64,000 bases of DNA from Pseudomonas rhizophila (GTDB taxonomy: Bacteria > Pseudomonadota > Gammaproteobacteria > Pseudomonadales > Pseudomonadaceae): positions 1,767,980 to 1,831,979 of the forward strand of contig NZ_CP024081.1 in NCBI RefSeq assembly GCF_003033885.1. Reading direction: 5' to 3'. Both the position numbers and the translations under genes were made by a program. This document shows, piece after piece, positions 29,076 through 35,215 of this stretch. How positions within the stretch are numbered: position 1 is the first letter of the stretch; every line of letters begins with the position of its first letter. A model generated the notes under the pieces. That model ran no database searches and was not told where the DNA came from. It was given only the letters and a program-made list of their open reading frames with translations.

Positions 29076-30239
29076 TTACACGTAGAACGACTTCAGCGGC
29101 GGGAAGCCATTGAATTCCACCGCGCTGTAGCTGGTGGTGTAGGCACCGGTCGACAGCCAGTACAGACGGTCACCGATGGCCAGGTTCAGCGGCAAACCGT
29201 ACTTGTAGTTTTCGTACATGATGTCGGCGCTGTCGCAAGTAGGGCCGGCGATGACCACTTCTTCCATCTCGCCTTTCTTCTCGGTCCAGATCGGGAACTT
29301 GATGGCTTCGTCCATGGTTTCGATCAGGCCGGAGAACTTGCCCACGTCCGTGTACACCCAGCGCTCGACGGCGGTACGGGATTTACGGGCCACCAGCACC
29401 ACTTCGCTGACCAGGATGCCGGCGTTGGCGATCAGCGAACGGCCCGGCTCCAGGATGATCTCCGGCAGTTCGTCGCCGAAGTCTTCCTTGAGGAAACGGA
29501 TGATTTCCTCTGCGTAGGTTTCCAGGCTGTTGGTGCGGGTGATGTAGTTGGCCGGGAAGCCACCGCCCATGTTGATCAGCTTCAACACGATGCCGTCTTC
29601 TTCTTTCAAGCGCTCGAAGATCACTTTGACCTTGGCGATGGCCGCGTCCCAGACGCTGATGTCACGCTGTTGCGAACCGACGTGGAAGGAAATGCCGTAC
29701 GGCACCAGGCCCAGGTCGCGGGCCAGGATCAGCAGGTCCATGGCCATGTCGGTCTGGCAGCCGAACTTGCGCGACAGCGGCCAGTCAGCGGTGGTCGAGC
29801 CTTCGGTAAGAATGCGCACGTAGACTTTCGAGCCTGGCGCGGCCTTGGCGATGTTGCGCAGGTCGGCTTCGGAGTCGGTGGCATACAGGCGCACGCCCTT
29901 CTCGTAGAAGTAGCGGATGTCCCGGGATTTCTTGATGGTGTTGCCGTAGCTGATCTGATCCGGGCCTACGCCACGGCTCATGACTTTATCCAGCTCATAG
30001 ATCGAAGCGATGTCGAAGTTCGAGCCTTTATCCTTGAGCAGGTCGATGATTTCCACTGCCGGGTTGGCCTTGACGGCGTAATAGACCTTGGCGAATTCGA
30101 AACCTGCGCGCAGGTCATCGTAGGCCTGGGAGATCATCGCGGTGTCGATCACCACGAACGGGGTTTCCTGCTTGTCGGCGAACGCCTTCATTTTCTGAAA
30201 GGTCTCGCGCGCGAAATAATCTTCGACCTGGATCGACAT
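29076..30239 (-). CDS. speC: Ornithine (ornithine/lysine) decarboxylase, fold type III
   Basis: This PLP enzyme makes putrescine from ornithine. The 387-residue protein is of the eukaryote-like alanine-racemase fold: PLP lysine K57 in YYAVKANP, a glycine-rich phosphate site in LINMGGGFP, EPGRSLIANAG, and the catalytic-Cys motif GPTCDSADIM. ATG at 30239 (MSIQVEDYFA) gives the length of P. aeruginosa SpeC (PA4519); an in-frame ATG at 30260 would overlap the Shine-Dalgarno GTAGGAG. Substrate preference between ornithine and lysine cannot be settled by eye. Confidence 0.93.
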   Translation of the reverse strand: MSIQVEDYFARETFQKMKAFADKQETPFVVIDTAMISQAYDDLRAGFEFAKVYYAVKANPAVEIIDLLKDKGSNFDIASIYELDKVMSRGVGPDQISYGNTIKKSRDIRYFYEKGVRLYATDSEADLRNIAKAAPGSKVYVRILTEGSTTADWPLSRKFGCQTDMAMDLLILARDLGLVPYGISFHVGSQQRDISVWDAAIAKVKVIFERLKEEDGIVLKLINMGGGFPANYITRTNSLETYAEEIIRFLKEDFGDELPEIILEPGRSLIANAGILVSEVVLVARKSRTAVERWVYTDVGKFSGLIETMDEAIKFPIWTEKKGEMEEVVIAGPTCDSADIMYENYKYGLPLNLAIGDRLYWLSTGAYTTSYSAVEFNGFPPLKSFYV

Positions 30240-30250
30240 ACTTGGGACTC

Positions 30251-30439
30251 CTACTGGCAAACATCAGGATCAATGGGTGTAAGGGCAAGCAGCCCTCGTG
30301 AACGTCCTCCGTATCCCCACTTTGGTTCGCCTACTTCCCAAGGCATGTCGCCGAAAGCAAAAAGGCCACGGGATGCTTGATTCCCTTGGCCTTGCTGTCT
30401 CGTCGTCAGTACTTGAGCCGGATGGATCGTTTCCAGCAT
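30251..30439 (-). CDS. Possible 62-codon upstream ORF in the speC leader
   Basis: An open frame starts at ATG 30439, about 9 nt from the predicted transcription start, and ends with TAG 11 nt before the speC ATG. The stop codon is part of the speC Shine-Dalgarno region. It is rich in Gly, Arg and Trp and spans the terminator-like hairpin at 30362-30393. It has no good Shine-Dalgarno of its own. Inference only: a leader peptide whose translation could affect the hairpin or speC initiation. It may equally be a chance frame. Confidence 0.3.
   Translation of the reverse strand: MLETIHPAQVLTTRQQGQGNQASRGLFAFGDMPWEVGEPKWGYGGRSRGLLALTPIDPDVCQ
30357..30393 (-). terminator. Terminator-like hairpin in the speC leader
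   Basis: AAGGCCA (30362-30368) pairs with TGGCCTT (30387-30393), and after one mismatch GGGA (30370-30373) pairs with TCCC (30382-30385). On the minus strand the stem runs into TTTTTGC. It lies about 120 nt upstream of speC and about 60 nt after the predicted start of transcription, so it would stop transcription before the gene unless read through. Confidence 0.6.
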
Positions 30440-30868: not shown

Positions 30869-32314
30869 ATGCGCAAGCGTCGGGTCATACGGATATTAAA
30901 CATTTCTTTGTTTCTCGGTTTTGTATCGGGCTCCAGCCTGTTGCAGGCAAGCCCTGGCACCGATACGGCCAAATTGATGGAGTACTGGTATCGATTGACC
31001 GCACGGGATTGTGGAAGTGGCAGGTTGGCGTCTGATTGCTCTGGGTTGATACTTCGAGGGATCGCCAGTAAACAAAGTTATTTGCCGTGGGATCCCAGCC
31101 CGTTATCGCATAGCCTGGAAGCGGGAGGCACCGGTATAGCGGCCGGAGGTACATCGGTTTCATATTTAAGAAAAGATGTGGAGTTCAATGGTCTTGGCAT
31201 GCTCAGGTTCAATGGTTTTGCCTTGGTGCCCAATGATTTTGTGAATGAAAAGACGCAATTCAAAATCAAAGTGTTGTGTGCCTTTCCTATTGATTCCTGG
31301 ACGAATTATCGAAACAACAGCGGCTGCGGCGATTATCAGGAGAATGGGAACTCCCTCGGCGTTGTCGAGGACTATTGCCAGAAGCTGGGCATCAGCAATG
31401 CCAAGGCGTGGATGGAGCACTATGACCGTCAAACCCGAGACCCTGAAGCCACGAAAGCGCACAAGTTTCAATGCGGCTTTGATACCACGAGAGACTACTT
31501 CGGTACCTATAACAAGGCTGATGCATTCAATACGTTTGTCGAAGCACGAAAAATTTTGGCCAATGATCCTGAGGAAAAGGACGATGCGATCCATACCCAG
31601 TCGGAGCTGCGAATTGAAACCTGGCCGGATAATAAATACTGGAAAAGGGACTGGGGCAGTCAGGAACGGGTGAAGTTTGATGCGCCTGTCGCCAGTGACA
31701 GCGACTCAGCAAAAGCCACGTACCTGGAGCTCCCTATCGCTGCTTTTATTTATGAGAGTGGTATTGATTACATTGACAGAACTACAAAGACTTTTACGTC
31801 TCGTGAGTTTGCTCGAGATGATCAGCGCCGATGGGTAGAGCAAGGCAATACGTGGAAGCCGATCATAAAAATACAATTTCCGAACTCGATCGCTGAGGAC
31901 GCGAAATTTGCTTACTACCCCGCCGATCAGCATGTTCAAGCCCCGGTGGATAGTCGTTCCTGCGATAACTACATAGAAAAGATCGAGTGGGATAACAATT
32001 ATGTAGAACCCGTATTGGGAAAAATTTCATCGCTTAAGGTCACGCCCACGGCCTGCGGAAGAAAAGCCGGCGTAGGGAAAACCAATGTCGTGCTGGCCGA
32101 GCTGGCGATCAAGGCTGCTGCCCTTGATCCGAATCGCAAGGACTGGAATTTCGATAACATGGGCAGCAGCATGCGCCGTCAGTTGGCCTGCCATCTTGAT
32201 TCCCCCGATATCGCCGAGAATAAACCTACGTGGAGCCTTGAGCCCGCTCGTCCCTATGTGGCCCACGATGTGATTATTAAATTGCCGGGTGATAACCGGT
32301 GTAATCCTCATTGA
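30869..32314 (+). CDS. Secreted halovibrin (HvnA)-like protein with DUF2599-like C-terminal domain
   Basis: The 481-residue protein starts behind AGGAGAGAG and has a basic N terminus and hydrophobic signal peptide (about 7-27). Residues about 35-355 share a family layout with the next two genes: DCSGLILR, VSYLRKDVEF, LCAFPID, GCG, YCQK, QCGFD, SELRIETWP, LPIAAFIY, PIIKIQFP and PADQ, with six matching cysteines. The C-terminal part (about 365-481) has four more Cys and a WSLEPARPYV...CNP pattern resembling DUF2599. I place the common part with the halovibrins, secreted NAD glycohydrolases first found in Vibrio fischeri, from memory only. Confidence 0.6.
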   Translation: MRKRRVIRILNISLFLGFVSGSSLLQASPGTDTAKLMEYWYRLTARDCGSGRLASDCSGLILRGIASKQSYLPWDPSPLSHSLEAGGTGIAAGGTSVSYLRKDVEFNGLGMLRFNGFALVPNDFVNEKTQFKIKVLCAFPIDSWTNYRNNSGCGDYQENGNSLGVVEDYCQKLGISNAKAWMEHYDRQTRDPEATKAHKFQCGFDTTRDYFGTYNKADAFNTFVEARKILANDPEEKDDAIHTQSELRIETWPDNKYWKRDWGSQERVKFDAPVASDSDSAKATYLELPIAAFIYESGIDYIDRTTKTFTSREFARDDQRRWVEQGNTWKPIIKIQFPNSIAEDAKFAYYPADQHVQAPVDSRSCDNYIEKIEWDNNYVEPVLGKISSLKVTPTACGRKAGVGKTNVVLAELAIKAAALDPNRKDWNFDNMGSSMRRQLACHLDSPDIAENKPTWSLEPARPYVAHDVIIKLPGDNRCNPH

Positions 32315-32364
32315 AAGGGTCAGATCAGCCTGCTGACCCGACCGGGATACTCAAGACGACGAAC

Positions 32365-33936
32365 ATGGCAACTCTCACGCTTAAAAAATCAACAAAGCTG
32401 CTGATTCTACTGGGCAGTCTTTGTGTTTCGCCGCTGTCCTTTAGCGAAGCGCTCGTGGCCACGAGCGTGCAATCAGGAGAAGCAACCGCAGCCGCCTTGA
32501 CCCGCAACTACTACGACACCGCGGTCAACTGTGGCGCTGCCACGGCACCGGCTTTTTTATGCACGGGTGTCGTGGCACGCACAACCAACGCAGGAAACTT
32601 CGATCCTTGGGACCATAGCGAATTTTCCAGGACCAGCGGCGCGGTTTCATTTTCCTACCTGAGGGCCGACGCCAAGTTCGGTGGTGCGCCATGGGGCAAC
32701 AACGAAGCGCGGCATGGCTATATTTTTTATCCCACCCTCCGGGCTCCGCAGGGAAAAATAAGGCCCTCGATCATCTGTTATTTTCCCTACGATGGCGCGA
32801 CGATCTATCGCAGCAAACCGGGCGCCCGCGGTTGCCGTGACAGCATTACTCAGTTCGTCTATCCCCTGAGTAAACCCTGTAATGAACAGAATATTTTCAC
32901 TGCCAGGGCCTGGCTGACCCATTTTCGAAGGGTCAGTTACGGAAATCCTGCCAGTTGCGCGTGGATGCTCAACGATGCGTTGAATGAGCAAGCCGTGGCT
33001 AACTTCAATGCGGGATTGCAAGTCAGAAAACTTGTTGAGCTTGAGGCAGGGGGTGCCGATTTCAATTTCAAGAATCACAACGAGCTTCGCATCGAAGCCT
33101 GGCCGGAAAAAAATCCGGCTGCGCTGCCCATCCAGGCGTTTTTCTGGATCACCGGCTCAAACGATCTGGAAGCCTCCCGAATCGACCAAAAAAAATATCA
33201 TGAGCGCACCAACGGTCTTTTTATCCCCATCGTTCGCGTCACATTGCCTCCCAGCCCACAAGGTCATTTCAGTTTCCAATATGTGAGTGCGGACCAAGCG
33301 ATCTCCCCGGTTATCCCGATGCCCGCTTTTGCTGCACCCACCATTCCCAAGGCTTACAGCACAGTCTCTGGCGACCGTCTGAACACTCAGGATATCTATA
33401 GGGATGAATACCTCATCGTGCAATTGCCCACCGAAGCAATTGCCGCCTCCGATATCTTGAGCGTTCGGTGGGGAGGCCGAGTGCCATACAGCAGTCCGCC
33501 GGTCGCATACGGCGAGCTTCCCGCGAACAAACAGGTGCTGATTCCCCGCACTGAGGTCGTCGATAGCATCGGGCTCACCGTACCGGTGAGCTACACCATC
33601 AAGAAAAGCGGTGCCGGTGAAACCCTGGAGTCTGGGGTGCGGTTTCTGACCATCGATCCCCAGGCGCTGGTGCTTCCGGCACCCAGTTATGCCTCGGGGA
33701 CAGTCACAGTCAACTCTCCAGCTCCGTCGGGCTCGACCCTGCGCGTACGTGTCATAGGGGAAACCTTCCTTGATACGGCCCATCAGCTGGTTACGGCCGG
33801 TAAGCCCAACTCTTTCGTTCTTGACCCGACCTGGGTCTCGAAACACAAGGGAAAAACGGTGCTGATCAATTATTCGGTGTTTACCAAACTCAGCCCGCAG
33901 TGGTTGTTTTCCCAAGTGCTCCGGGTCCAGCTATAA
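32365..33936 (+). CDS. Secreted halovibrin (HvnA)-like protein with Ig-like C-terminal domains
   Basis: A paralogue of its upstream neighbour, 523 residues from ATG 32365, with signal peptide MATLTLKKSTKLLILLGSLC ending near FSEA. The common domain (about 45-315) shows FLCTGVVAR, VSFSYLRADAKF, ICYFPYDGAT, NELRIEAWP, LPIQAFFW and PIVRVTLPP with six cysteines. The last 200 residues are beta-rich with two or so Ig-like modules of the kind seen in Pseudomonas surface proteins (ILSVRWGG...VPVSYTIK). An in-frame ATG at 32311 would overlap the upstream stop and precede the signal. It is 50 nt after gene one, probably one operon. Confidence 0.6.
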   Translation: MATLTLKKSTKLLILLGSLCVSPLSFSEALVATSVQSGEATAAALTRNYYDTAVNCGAATAPAFLCTGVVARTTNAGNFDPWDHSEFSRTSGAVSFSYLRADAKFGGAPWGNNEARHGYIFYPTLRAPQGKIRPSIICYFPYDGATIYRSKPGARGCRDSITQFVYPLSKPCNEQNIFTARAWLTHFRRVSYGNPASCAWMLNDALNEQAVANFNAGLQVRKLVELEAGGADFNFKNHNELRIEAWPEKNPAALPIQAFFWITGSNDLEASRIDQKKYHERTNGLFIPIVRVTLPPSPQGHFSFQYVSADQAISPVIPMPAFAAPTIPKAYSTVSGDRLNTQDIYRDEYLIVQLPTEAIAASDILSVRWGGRVPYSSPPVAYGELPANKQVLIPRTEVVDSIGLTVPVSYTIKKSGAGETLESGVRFLTIDPQALVLPAPSYASGTVTVNSPAPSGSTLRVRVIGETFLDTAHQLVTAGKPNSFVLDPTWVSKHKGKTVLINYSVFTKLSPQWLFSQVLRVQL

Positions 33937-34306
33937 ACGTCAGGCCAACGCTGTCTCGGCTGGCGAAACAATACTGGTCTTACCCCACGGGACTTGCCGG
34001 AGCTTAGGTACTCGGCATCGATTCATTCGCTCAGGTACTGCGAGCAGGCGCCGTTCTGACGGTGCAAGTCGCGGCGTCGTACAAAACCCTGGGCCTTGTT
34101 CTGATTGCTCTCGCTGATCACTTCTTCTCTGGTGGATTAAGGAGGAACACTCGGTTTTTTATTTCAAATAAGTATTGAGCACTGTGAAAGTTGACAGGTG
34201 TTCGAAGGGGAGCGCTCTTGTAGCGTAGATAAAACTGTTAACGGAAAAAGCCTGAAAAAGACATAGCTTACTTAGAGCCTTGTCTGTTCATGTATGGGAG
34301 TCTGAA
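33937..34306. other. Intergenic region between second and third halovibrin-like genes
   Basis: 370 bp without a convincing gene. It holds a minus-strand coding-like remnant of 32 codons (34023-34121), an AAGGAGG Shine-Dalgarno-like sequence at 34139-34145 with no start codon after it, and A/T-rich DNA just before the third gene. It looks like scar sequence from past insertion or deletion. Confidence 0.5.
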
Positions 34307-35215
34307 ATGAAAAGACAATTTTGCATTGTGCTGTTTTTATTGTTGACGGCTGGCTGTGCAACACATGAATTGGATAGGAGCACTATTGATGAGCCGTCAG
34401 GACAGGCTGTTGGCGTCCAAGGCGCAGGTACCGGTCCAGAAATAGCGGCCTATCTCACGGAAGCCTATAACAACGTCTTGACCATGTGTCGCAACAACCC
34501 CTCGGCGCCGTCGTTTTTATGCACAGGGGTGACGCTACGGGCAACCCAACACTCCACGCAGTTTCATTTTTGGAATCCCAACCCAGCATCGACGGGCGTC
34601 TCTTTTTCCTGGCTGCGTAAAGACGCGAAGTTCAGCAAATTAGTATTTGGCTACAATAACGGCTTTATTCTTTATCCCGATTTTTTTAAACCGACAGGAA
34701 AGATCGCATTGGCGGTGCTGTGCTTCTTTCCAGTCGACGGCGCCACTGACCATCGACCTGACGAAGGTTGTGGTCAATATCCCAATCGCCCCAACAGCCG
34801 ACCTTGCCAATCCCAAGGTATTACCACAGCCGCGCACTATATTGCCCATTTCAACGCTAACGCAGGTATGTACGGTGCATTGTGTGGCTTCGATGTTCGT
34901 GACGAGCTGGATGAACGAGGCGCCGTTGCGTTCACCGAGGGCGTGAAGGCCCAGGGGCAACTTCCAGCCTCCGCATTTGGTACGCAGAATGAATTTCGCG
35001 TGAGAAAGTGGGCTCAGAATATTGGTCAGACCCTTCCGATTGAGGCCGTTTTTTACATCAATGATACGGGTAAGGTTGGCGCTCAATATGATCAACGGGA
35101 CTTTAAAACGCAGACCGGCATTTGGATCCCCATGATCAAGATTACGCTTCCCCAAACGGCCGCAAATGACGCGAGATTTGAGTTTATTCCCGCTGATCAG
35201 GCTATCTCATCCTGA
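34307..35215 (+). CDS. Halovibrin (HvnA)-like lipoprotein
   Basis: The third paralogue is 302 residues and holds only the common domain. ATG 34307 follows GGGAG and gives a lipoprotein-type signal (hydrophobic run then LLTAGC, Cys17); +2 is Ala, so outer-membrane sorting is expected. The frame opens 27 nt upstream, but that start would spoil the signal. Visible family motifs: FLCTGVTLR (70-78), VSFSWLRKDAKF (98-109), GFILYP, CFFPVDGATDHR (139-150), CGFDVRDELDE, NEFRVRKW, YDQRDF and ADQAI. Cys61, 72, 139, 155, 167 and 193 probably form three disulfides. The NAD-glycohydrolase role is inferred from family resemblance. Confidence 0.6.
   Translation: MKRQFCIVLFLLLTAGCATHELDRSTIDEPSGQAVGVQGAGTGPEIAAYLTEAYNNVLTMCRNNPSAPSFLCTGVTLRATQHSTQFHFWNPNPASTGVSFSWLRKDAKFSKLVFGYNNGFILYPDFFKPTGKIALAVLCFFPVDGATDHRPDEGCGQYPNRPNSRPCQSQGITTAAHYIAHFNANAGMYGALCGFDVRDELDERGAVAFTEGVKAQGQLPASAFGTQNEFRVRKWAQNIGQTLPIEAVFYINDTGKVGAQYDQRDFKTQTGIWIPMIKITLPQTAANDARFEFIPADQAISS

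Follow-up and report, generated by a model that had tools for sequence, protein, structure and literature searches.

Pseudomonas rhizophila encodes three exported proteins of the halovibrin (HvnA) type, here called P1, P2 and P3, side by side between a decarboxylase-like gene, odc, and prfC. The window is the whole stretch of DNA analysed, 64,000 nucleotides of contig NZ_CP024081.1 (positions 1,767,980 to 1,831,979), which forms part of a single-contig genome of 5.95 Mb, and the three plus-strand open reading frames (ORFs) between odc and prfC extend over 30869-32314, 32311-33936 and 34280-35215. A preliminary description had seen here three related, exported proteins that share a six-cysteine domain in different formats, and had likened that domain to NAD glycohydrolases of Vibrio fischeri. 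The formats do differ, P1 carrying a DUF2599 tail, P2 a two-module tail and P3 being a core-only lipoprotein with no further domain after its core. The export signals, ordinary signal peptides in P1 and P2 and a lipobox in P3, are likewise present, all three read by eye; at the lipobox position, related P3-type proteins have LSGC, VSGC, VAGC or IAGC. The features, in window coordinates, are as follows.

30869..32314, + strand: P1, exported halovibrin-type enzyme (predicted) with DUF2599 tail, 481 amino acids (aa), from the ORF, core match and Pfam
30869..30949, + strand: P1 signal peptide, cut likely after LLQA, read by eye
30956..31939, + strand: P1 halovibrin core, aa 30-357, from alignment
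31985..32308, + strand: P1 DUF2599 domain, aa 373-480 (PF10783, 48.9 bits against a cut-off of 25, E 9.5e-13; tail alone E 7.9e-14)
32365..33936, + strand: P2, exported halovibrin-type enzyme (predicted) with two-module tail, 523 aa, from the most likely ATG at 32365
32365..32451, + strand: P2 signal peptide, cut likely after SFSEA, read by eye
32473..33306, + strand: P2 halovibrin core, aa 37-314, from alignment
33307..33933, + strand: P2 tail, two homologous modules of about 90 aa, ending in FSxxLR
34307..35215, + strand: P3, halovibrin-type lipoprotein, core only, 302 aa, from the most likely ATG at 34307
34307..34354, + strand: P3 lipoprotein signal, TAG/C17, lipobox-like TAGC read by eye
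34433..35209, + strand: P3 halovibrin core, with predicted active site R78, S99/S101, D144 and E229

A halovibrin core with a predicted ADP-ribosyltransferase-like fold

The HvnA of P. aeruginosa, PA1914, is described in the consulted part of PMC3510237 as a protein of 408 aa with a signal peptide, an HvnA domain and a C-terminal DUF2599, 44% identical to both HvnA and HvnB of V. fischeri, themselves described there as NAD glycohydrolases, and its RGD is placed at 174. A family search returned an HvnA-DUF2599 protein of the same length from Pseudomonadaceae, L141, with RGD at 175, which from its length and architecture is likely the PA1914 counterpart. It matches P1 over 467 aligned positions (30.6% identity, E 2e-50), P2 over 305 (31%, E 3.6e-36) and P3 over 266 (39%, E 4.8e-59), and a Serratia plasmid stretch encodes two further matching proteins (42% and 38% with P3), one of them annotated by its depositor as 'halovibrin HvnA'. 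By these matches P1, P2 and P3 belong, judged by sequence, to the halovibrin type, and P1 shows the HvnA-DUF2599 format known from the literature, resembling PA1914 in signal peptide, core and tail. The core of P1 is longer than that of P3 (328 versus 259 residues), and the formats of P2 and P3 differ from that of PA1914. The preliminary description thus made a sound observation and guessed the family largely correctly; the family itself is already known, and the three-format set is a variant thereof.

The shared domain is also evident within the genome, where a search with P3 recovers P2 (E 1.8e-41) and P1 (E 2.3e-15 plus 4.6e-5), values far beyond chance. The same query finds two paralogues outside the locus, C1:1436974-1437858 (E 6.9e-54) and C1:4104560-4105456 (E 9.4e-53), bringing the set, earlier taken to number three, to five halovibrin genes; most of the motifs first proposed are visible in an alignment of the five. 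For family-wide comparison, 149 ORFs with a core match were reduced to 138 full single cores, incomplete and multi-domain matches being dropped, and then to 110 unique ones. All 110 keep the six cysteines (C61, C72, C139, C155, C167 and C193 in P3) noted at the outset, which probably form disulfide bonds. Against orthologues in P. tehranensis, dN/dS, calculated for P1 and P2, is about 0.07-0.08 and about 0.17-0.19 respectively, and both genes are under purifying selection. The core has no match in Pfam, NCBIfam, PHROGs or PADLOC, apart from scattered single weak Pfam matches among 72 cores, and the best single-sequence matches of P3 in the PDB reach only E 0.49-0.53.

A structure model of the P3 core falls in the ADP-ribosyltransferase superfamily, R-S-E class, in agreement with the NAD-using fold foreseen earlier. 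The closest fold is that of CteC, a ubiquitin-Thr66 ADP-ribosyltransferase and type III effector of Chromobacterium violaceum. The predicted active-site residues R78, S99/S101 and E229 correspond to model residues 61, 82/84 and 212, within or at predicted strands 58-62, 80-87 and 212-216, so that the conserved R, S-x-S and E stand on the strands expected for the class. D144 is present in 110/110 cores and E229 in 108/110, and the key residues are rarely absent (R78 in 1 core, S99 in 5, S101 in 4, where it is Thr, R104 in 2, D106 in 1, and E229 in 2, where it is Asp); P1, P2 and P3 retain every predicted catalytic residue. Position 227 is not conserved across the family (Q in 45 cores, H in 36, Y in 12, others in the rest), Gln occurring in P1 and P3. 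The cores thereby resemble CteC, which has an Asp-Glu catalytic pair and, as stated in the consulted part of PMC11281641, is missing the Glu/Gln-X-Glu motif. They differ from it in having no detectable sequence similarity to it and a different R-to-S spacing, and in that P1-P3 carry export signals and six conserved cysteines whereas CteC is a type III effector. Helices occur in the stretch of the P3 model where the ubiquitin-binding helical insertion of CteC would fall, as seen without detailed superposition. The DarT DNA ADP-ribosyltransferases are toxin-antitoxin enzymes and, unlike P1-P3, are not known to have export signals.

Tails, distribution and history of the locus

In 62 of the 110 unique cores the protein stops no more than 20 residues beyond the core; a DUF2599-like tail follows in 28, a P2-type tail in 14 and some other tail in 6, these classes being assigned by pattern, with the DUF2599-like class confirmed by Pfam in 28/28 cases at E 0.001 or better. 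The DUF2599-like tail suspected in P1 is thus matched by a Pfam model. The tail of P2 had been called Ig-like: its modular make-up holds, the two modules being homologous copies (profile-profile E 2.2e-12) and the tail ending in a conserved FSxxLR, and the Ig-like label is unproven since the tail has no match in Pfam, NCBIfam or PDB sequences. A surface-binding role, also proposed for it at first, is likewise hypothetical. Elsewhere, a tail related to that of P2 stands at the C-terminal end of a distinct ORF, of about 470 aa or more, which lies immediately upstream of a halovibrin gene (identity 23-39%, E 4e-5 to 1e-35). Of the 110 cores, 16 have such a neighbour; 14 are core-only and 2 also bear their own tail. 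The paralogue C1:4104560 is among the 16. P. rhizophila has the P2-type tail three times, two fused to a core and one in the gene upstream of a core.

The tail and the core tend to occur together. Strong tail matches, with E no higher than 1e-30, were found in 34/298 Pseudomonas genomes, and cores in 34/34 of these; 70/298 have a core and no strong tail match and 194/298 neither (Fisher p 4.6e-18, a value computed with no correction for kinship and not a true probability, because the genomes are related). Of the strong tail matches, 49/57 are fused to a core or no more than 3 kb away from one, 39 found first and then 10/18 of the remainder, for which 23 listed cores were compared and the other rows inspected by eye. 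Several points speak against the link: 8/57 strong matches have no core within 3 kb, at a laxer E of 1e-10 cores are found in 41/49 tail-bearing genomes and are missing from 8/49, and part of the association is selection, because halovibrin loci supplied the tails for the tail profile (A4), which favours recovering such loci. In 12 separate tail proteins no signal peptide was obvious by eye, which argues against a simple secreted partner or complex. A bolder reading, in which a large and so far unrecognised exported family of NAD-using proteins with a CteC-like fold in Pseudomonas employs the two-module tail, fused or as a separate upstream protein of about 470 aa, as an A/B-toxin-like partner directed at a eukaryotic target, is doubtful.

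Other architectures were observed beside these. In Pseudomonas sp. PSB18 (L024:5845-7368) a core is followed by a tail that matches Big_2 (E 6.8e-05) and, weakly and far below their cut-off, intimin models (E 2.7e-06), and L032:5845-7368 has a near-identical tail. Two cores stand in tandem within one frame of 555-576 aa at G036:C1:1908305-1909897, G098:C1:1924393-1927711, G213:C1:2271861-2275104 and G058:C1:56304-59795, all four near tail-module matches.

At least one core was found in 104/298 genomes of the genus draw, with up to 9 copies per genome, in 6/148 of the family draw, a lower share from draws and profiles (A3, A2) that differ, and in 1/369 of the class draw, which returned the genome of P. 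rhizophila itself and thus points to a patchy family outside Pseudomonas. Named loci among the matches listed belong to Photorhabdus, Serratia, Erwinia, Franconibacter, Cedecea, Burkholderia and Paracidovorax, and plasmid matches include Vibrio and Tistrella. In each of six Photorhabdus loci (L016, L018, L019, L021, L023 and L045) a pair of core-only halovibrin genes, separated by about 0.95 kb, lies on opposite strands, and on a Serratia marcescens plasmid (L155:4068-5798) the halovibrin gene has a gene annotated lasR immediately upstream and an IS91-family transposase downstream.

The surroundings of the three genes comprise the following.

29076-30260, - strand: odc, decarboxylase-like, labelled by eye
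33939..34102, strand not assigned: remnants of an ABC-transporter ATPase gene, in the intergenic stretch 33937-34306 between P2 and P3
35381-36964: prfC, labelled by eye

In a quick tree the three cores fall in separate clades, P1 with 4 others, P2 with 10 and P3 with 7, each with full SH-aLRT support, this being the tree's sole support measure and a long-branch warning applying elsewhere in it. Recent tandem triplication is rejected, because each core is nearer to genes from other species than to the two beside it. P. tehranensis (L061) has orthologues of P1 and P2 together between odc and prfC (96% and 93% identity), and P. frederiksbergensis SI8 (L062) also has both together, P2 in two ORFs. 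This P2 orthologue (L062:5872-7457) looks broken because it is split into two open frames; upstream of it, P1 keeps a single open frame. Elsewhere the odc-prfC site has P3-type genes without P1 or P2. A conserved three-gene order is thus rejected as a general feature, the locus holding varying combinations. At least 12/298 genomes, P. rhizophila included, have a halovibrin gene between odc and prfC, and inspection of the interval found such genes in 11/11 genomes listed as positive and in 0/29 with none listed nearby. The ATPase remnants are blastn pieces of 69-89 bp with 74-90% identity in the 16 rows shown, and the matching DNA in L118 and L107 consists of ORFs with ABC_tran plus CBS by Pfam. 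The compared genomes keep this ATPase gene between odc and prfC, in L118 within an OpuC-like ABC operon (ABC_tran plus CBS, OpuAC, BPD_transp_1); in the window no gene of the operon is left among the ORFs of the interval. The interval is therefore a variable site that accumulates halovibrin genes. A phage or defence origin is rejected, with no PHROG or PADLOC match and one viral-contig scan with P3 empty.

Proposed activity and its alternatives

P1-P3 are probably exported HvnA-type enzymes of the R-S-E fold, binding NAD+ and splitting off its nicotinamide, with water as the predominant acceptor, as in an NAD glycohydrolase; they would act extracellularly or inside a eukaryotic target. On the model of CteC, the NAD diphosphate would be held by R78 and the nicotinamide ribose by E229 and D144. 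P1 would leave the cell, which is possible given the type II secretin encoded in the genome; P2 would have a module for targeting or for a partner, and P3 would be located at the outer membrane. As first noted, there is no convincing candidate for a cognate immunity gene, the gaps containing only short ORFs, none over 79 aa lying within, in a check that would miss a very small gene; export would explain why none is needed.

Several observations weigh against this assignment. NAD cleavage by P1-P3 is read from sequence and predicted fold, and the active-site match to CteC is one of spacing and strand position, not of superposed coordinates, with R and S 21-23 residues apart in halovibrin cores versus 32 in CteC. 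A profile of 72 cores against PDB chains returned nothing up to E 5. The likeness to V. fischeri HvnA and HvnB runs through PA1914 rather than a direct comparison, and V. fischeri is not among the 57 named loci listed from the scan. For PA1914 itself, the consulted part of PMC3510237 reports undiminished virulence of the mutant in flies and states that secretion was not demonstrated.

Since CteC modifies a protein, the fold would also fit protein ADP-ribosylation, an option that the preliminary description did not raise. The main rival is therefore that P1-P3 are genuine mono-ADP-ribosyltransferases whose acceptor, a protein or something else, belongs to a host, predator or competitor, and that they hydrolyse NAD only as a side reaction. 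CteC is a Thr/Ser-specific protein ADP-ribosyltransferase (PMC10810742), the cores share its Asp-Glu pair without a conserved Glu/Gln-X-Glu (PMC11281641, in the part consulted), and halovibrin was initially taken for an ADP-ribosyltransferase. The older literature as summarised in the consulted part of PMC3510237 came, however, to describe it as an NAD+-glycohydrolase that releases free ADP-ribose, and no acceptor is known; transfer to a protein is rather unlikely.

A nutritional role, in line with the NAD scavenging named at first as an option, in which extracellular NAD+ is cleaved for uptake of nicotinamide or ADP-ribose, would agree with the export of P1-P3, the lack of a convincing immunity gene and the single PnuC-type transporter of the genome. 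The transporter says nothing specific, however, because PnuC is found in 5/14 control genomes as well and is separated from each hvn gene of this genome by about 150 kb or more, and the several tail types, the up to 9 copies per genome and the host-associated Photorhabdus, Serratia and Erwinia loci resemble interaction factors, so that nutrition is improbable. That one or more of P1-P3 is a non-catalytic binding or decoy protein, as the loss of single key residues in some of the 110 cores might suggest, is very improbable given that all three keep every predicted catalytic residue and that P1 and P2 are under purifying selection.

Relative to the literature searched, the CteC-like assignment of the active site and the tie of the P2 tail module to halovibrin genes are new. 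A core found in 104/298 Pseudomonas genomes has no matching model in the copies of Pfam and NCBIfam searched, and its placement in the ADP-ribosyltransferase fold next to CteC provides a testable active site for it. The P2-type tail module that travels with the core offers a concrete lead to the target, and the likeness to CteC brings back the older question whether halovibrins are NAD hydrolases or protein-modifying enzymes.
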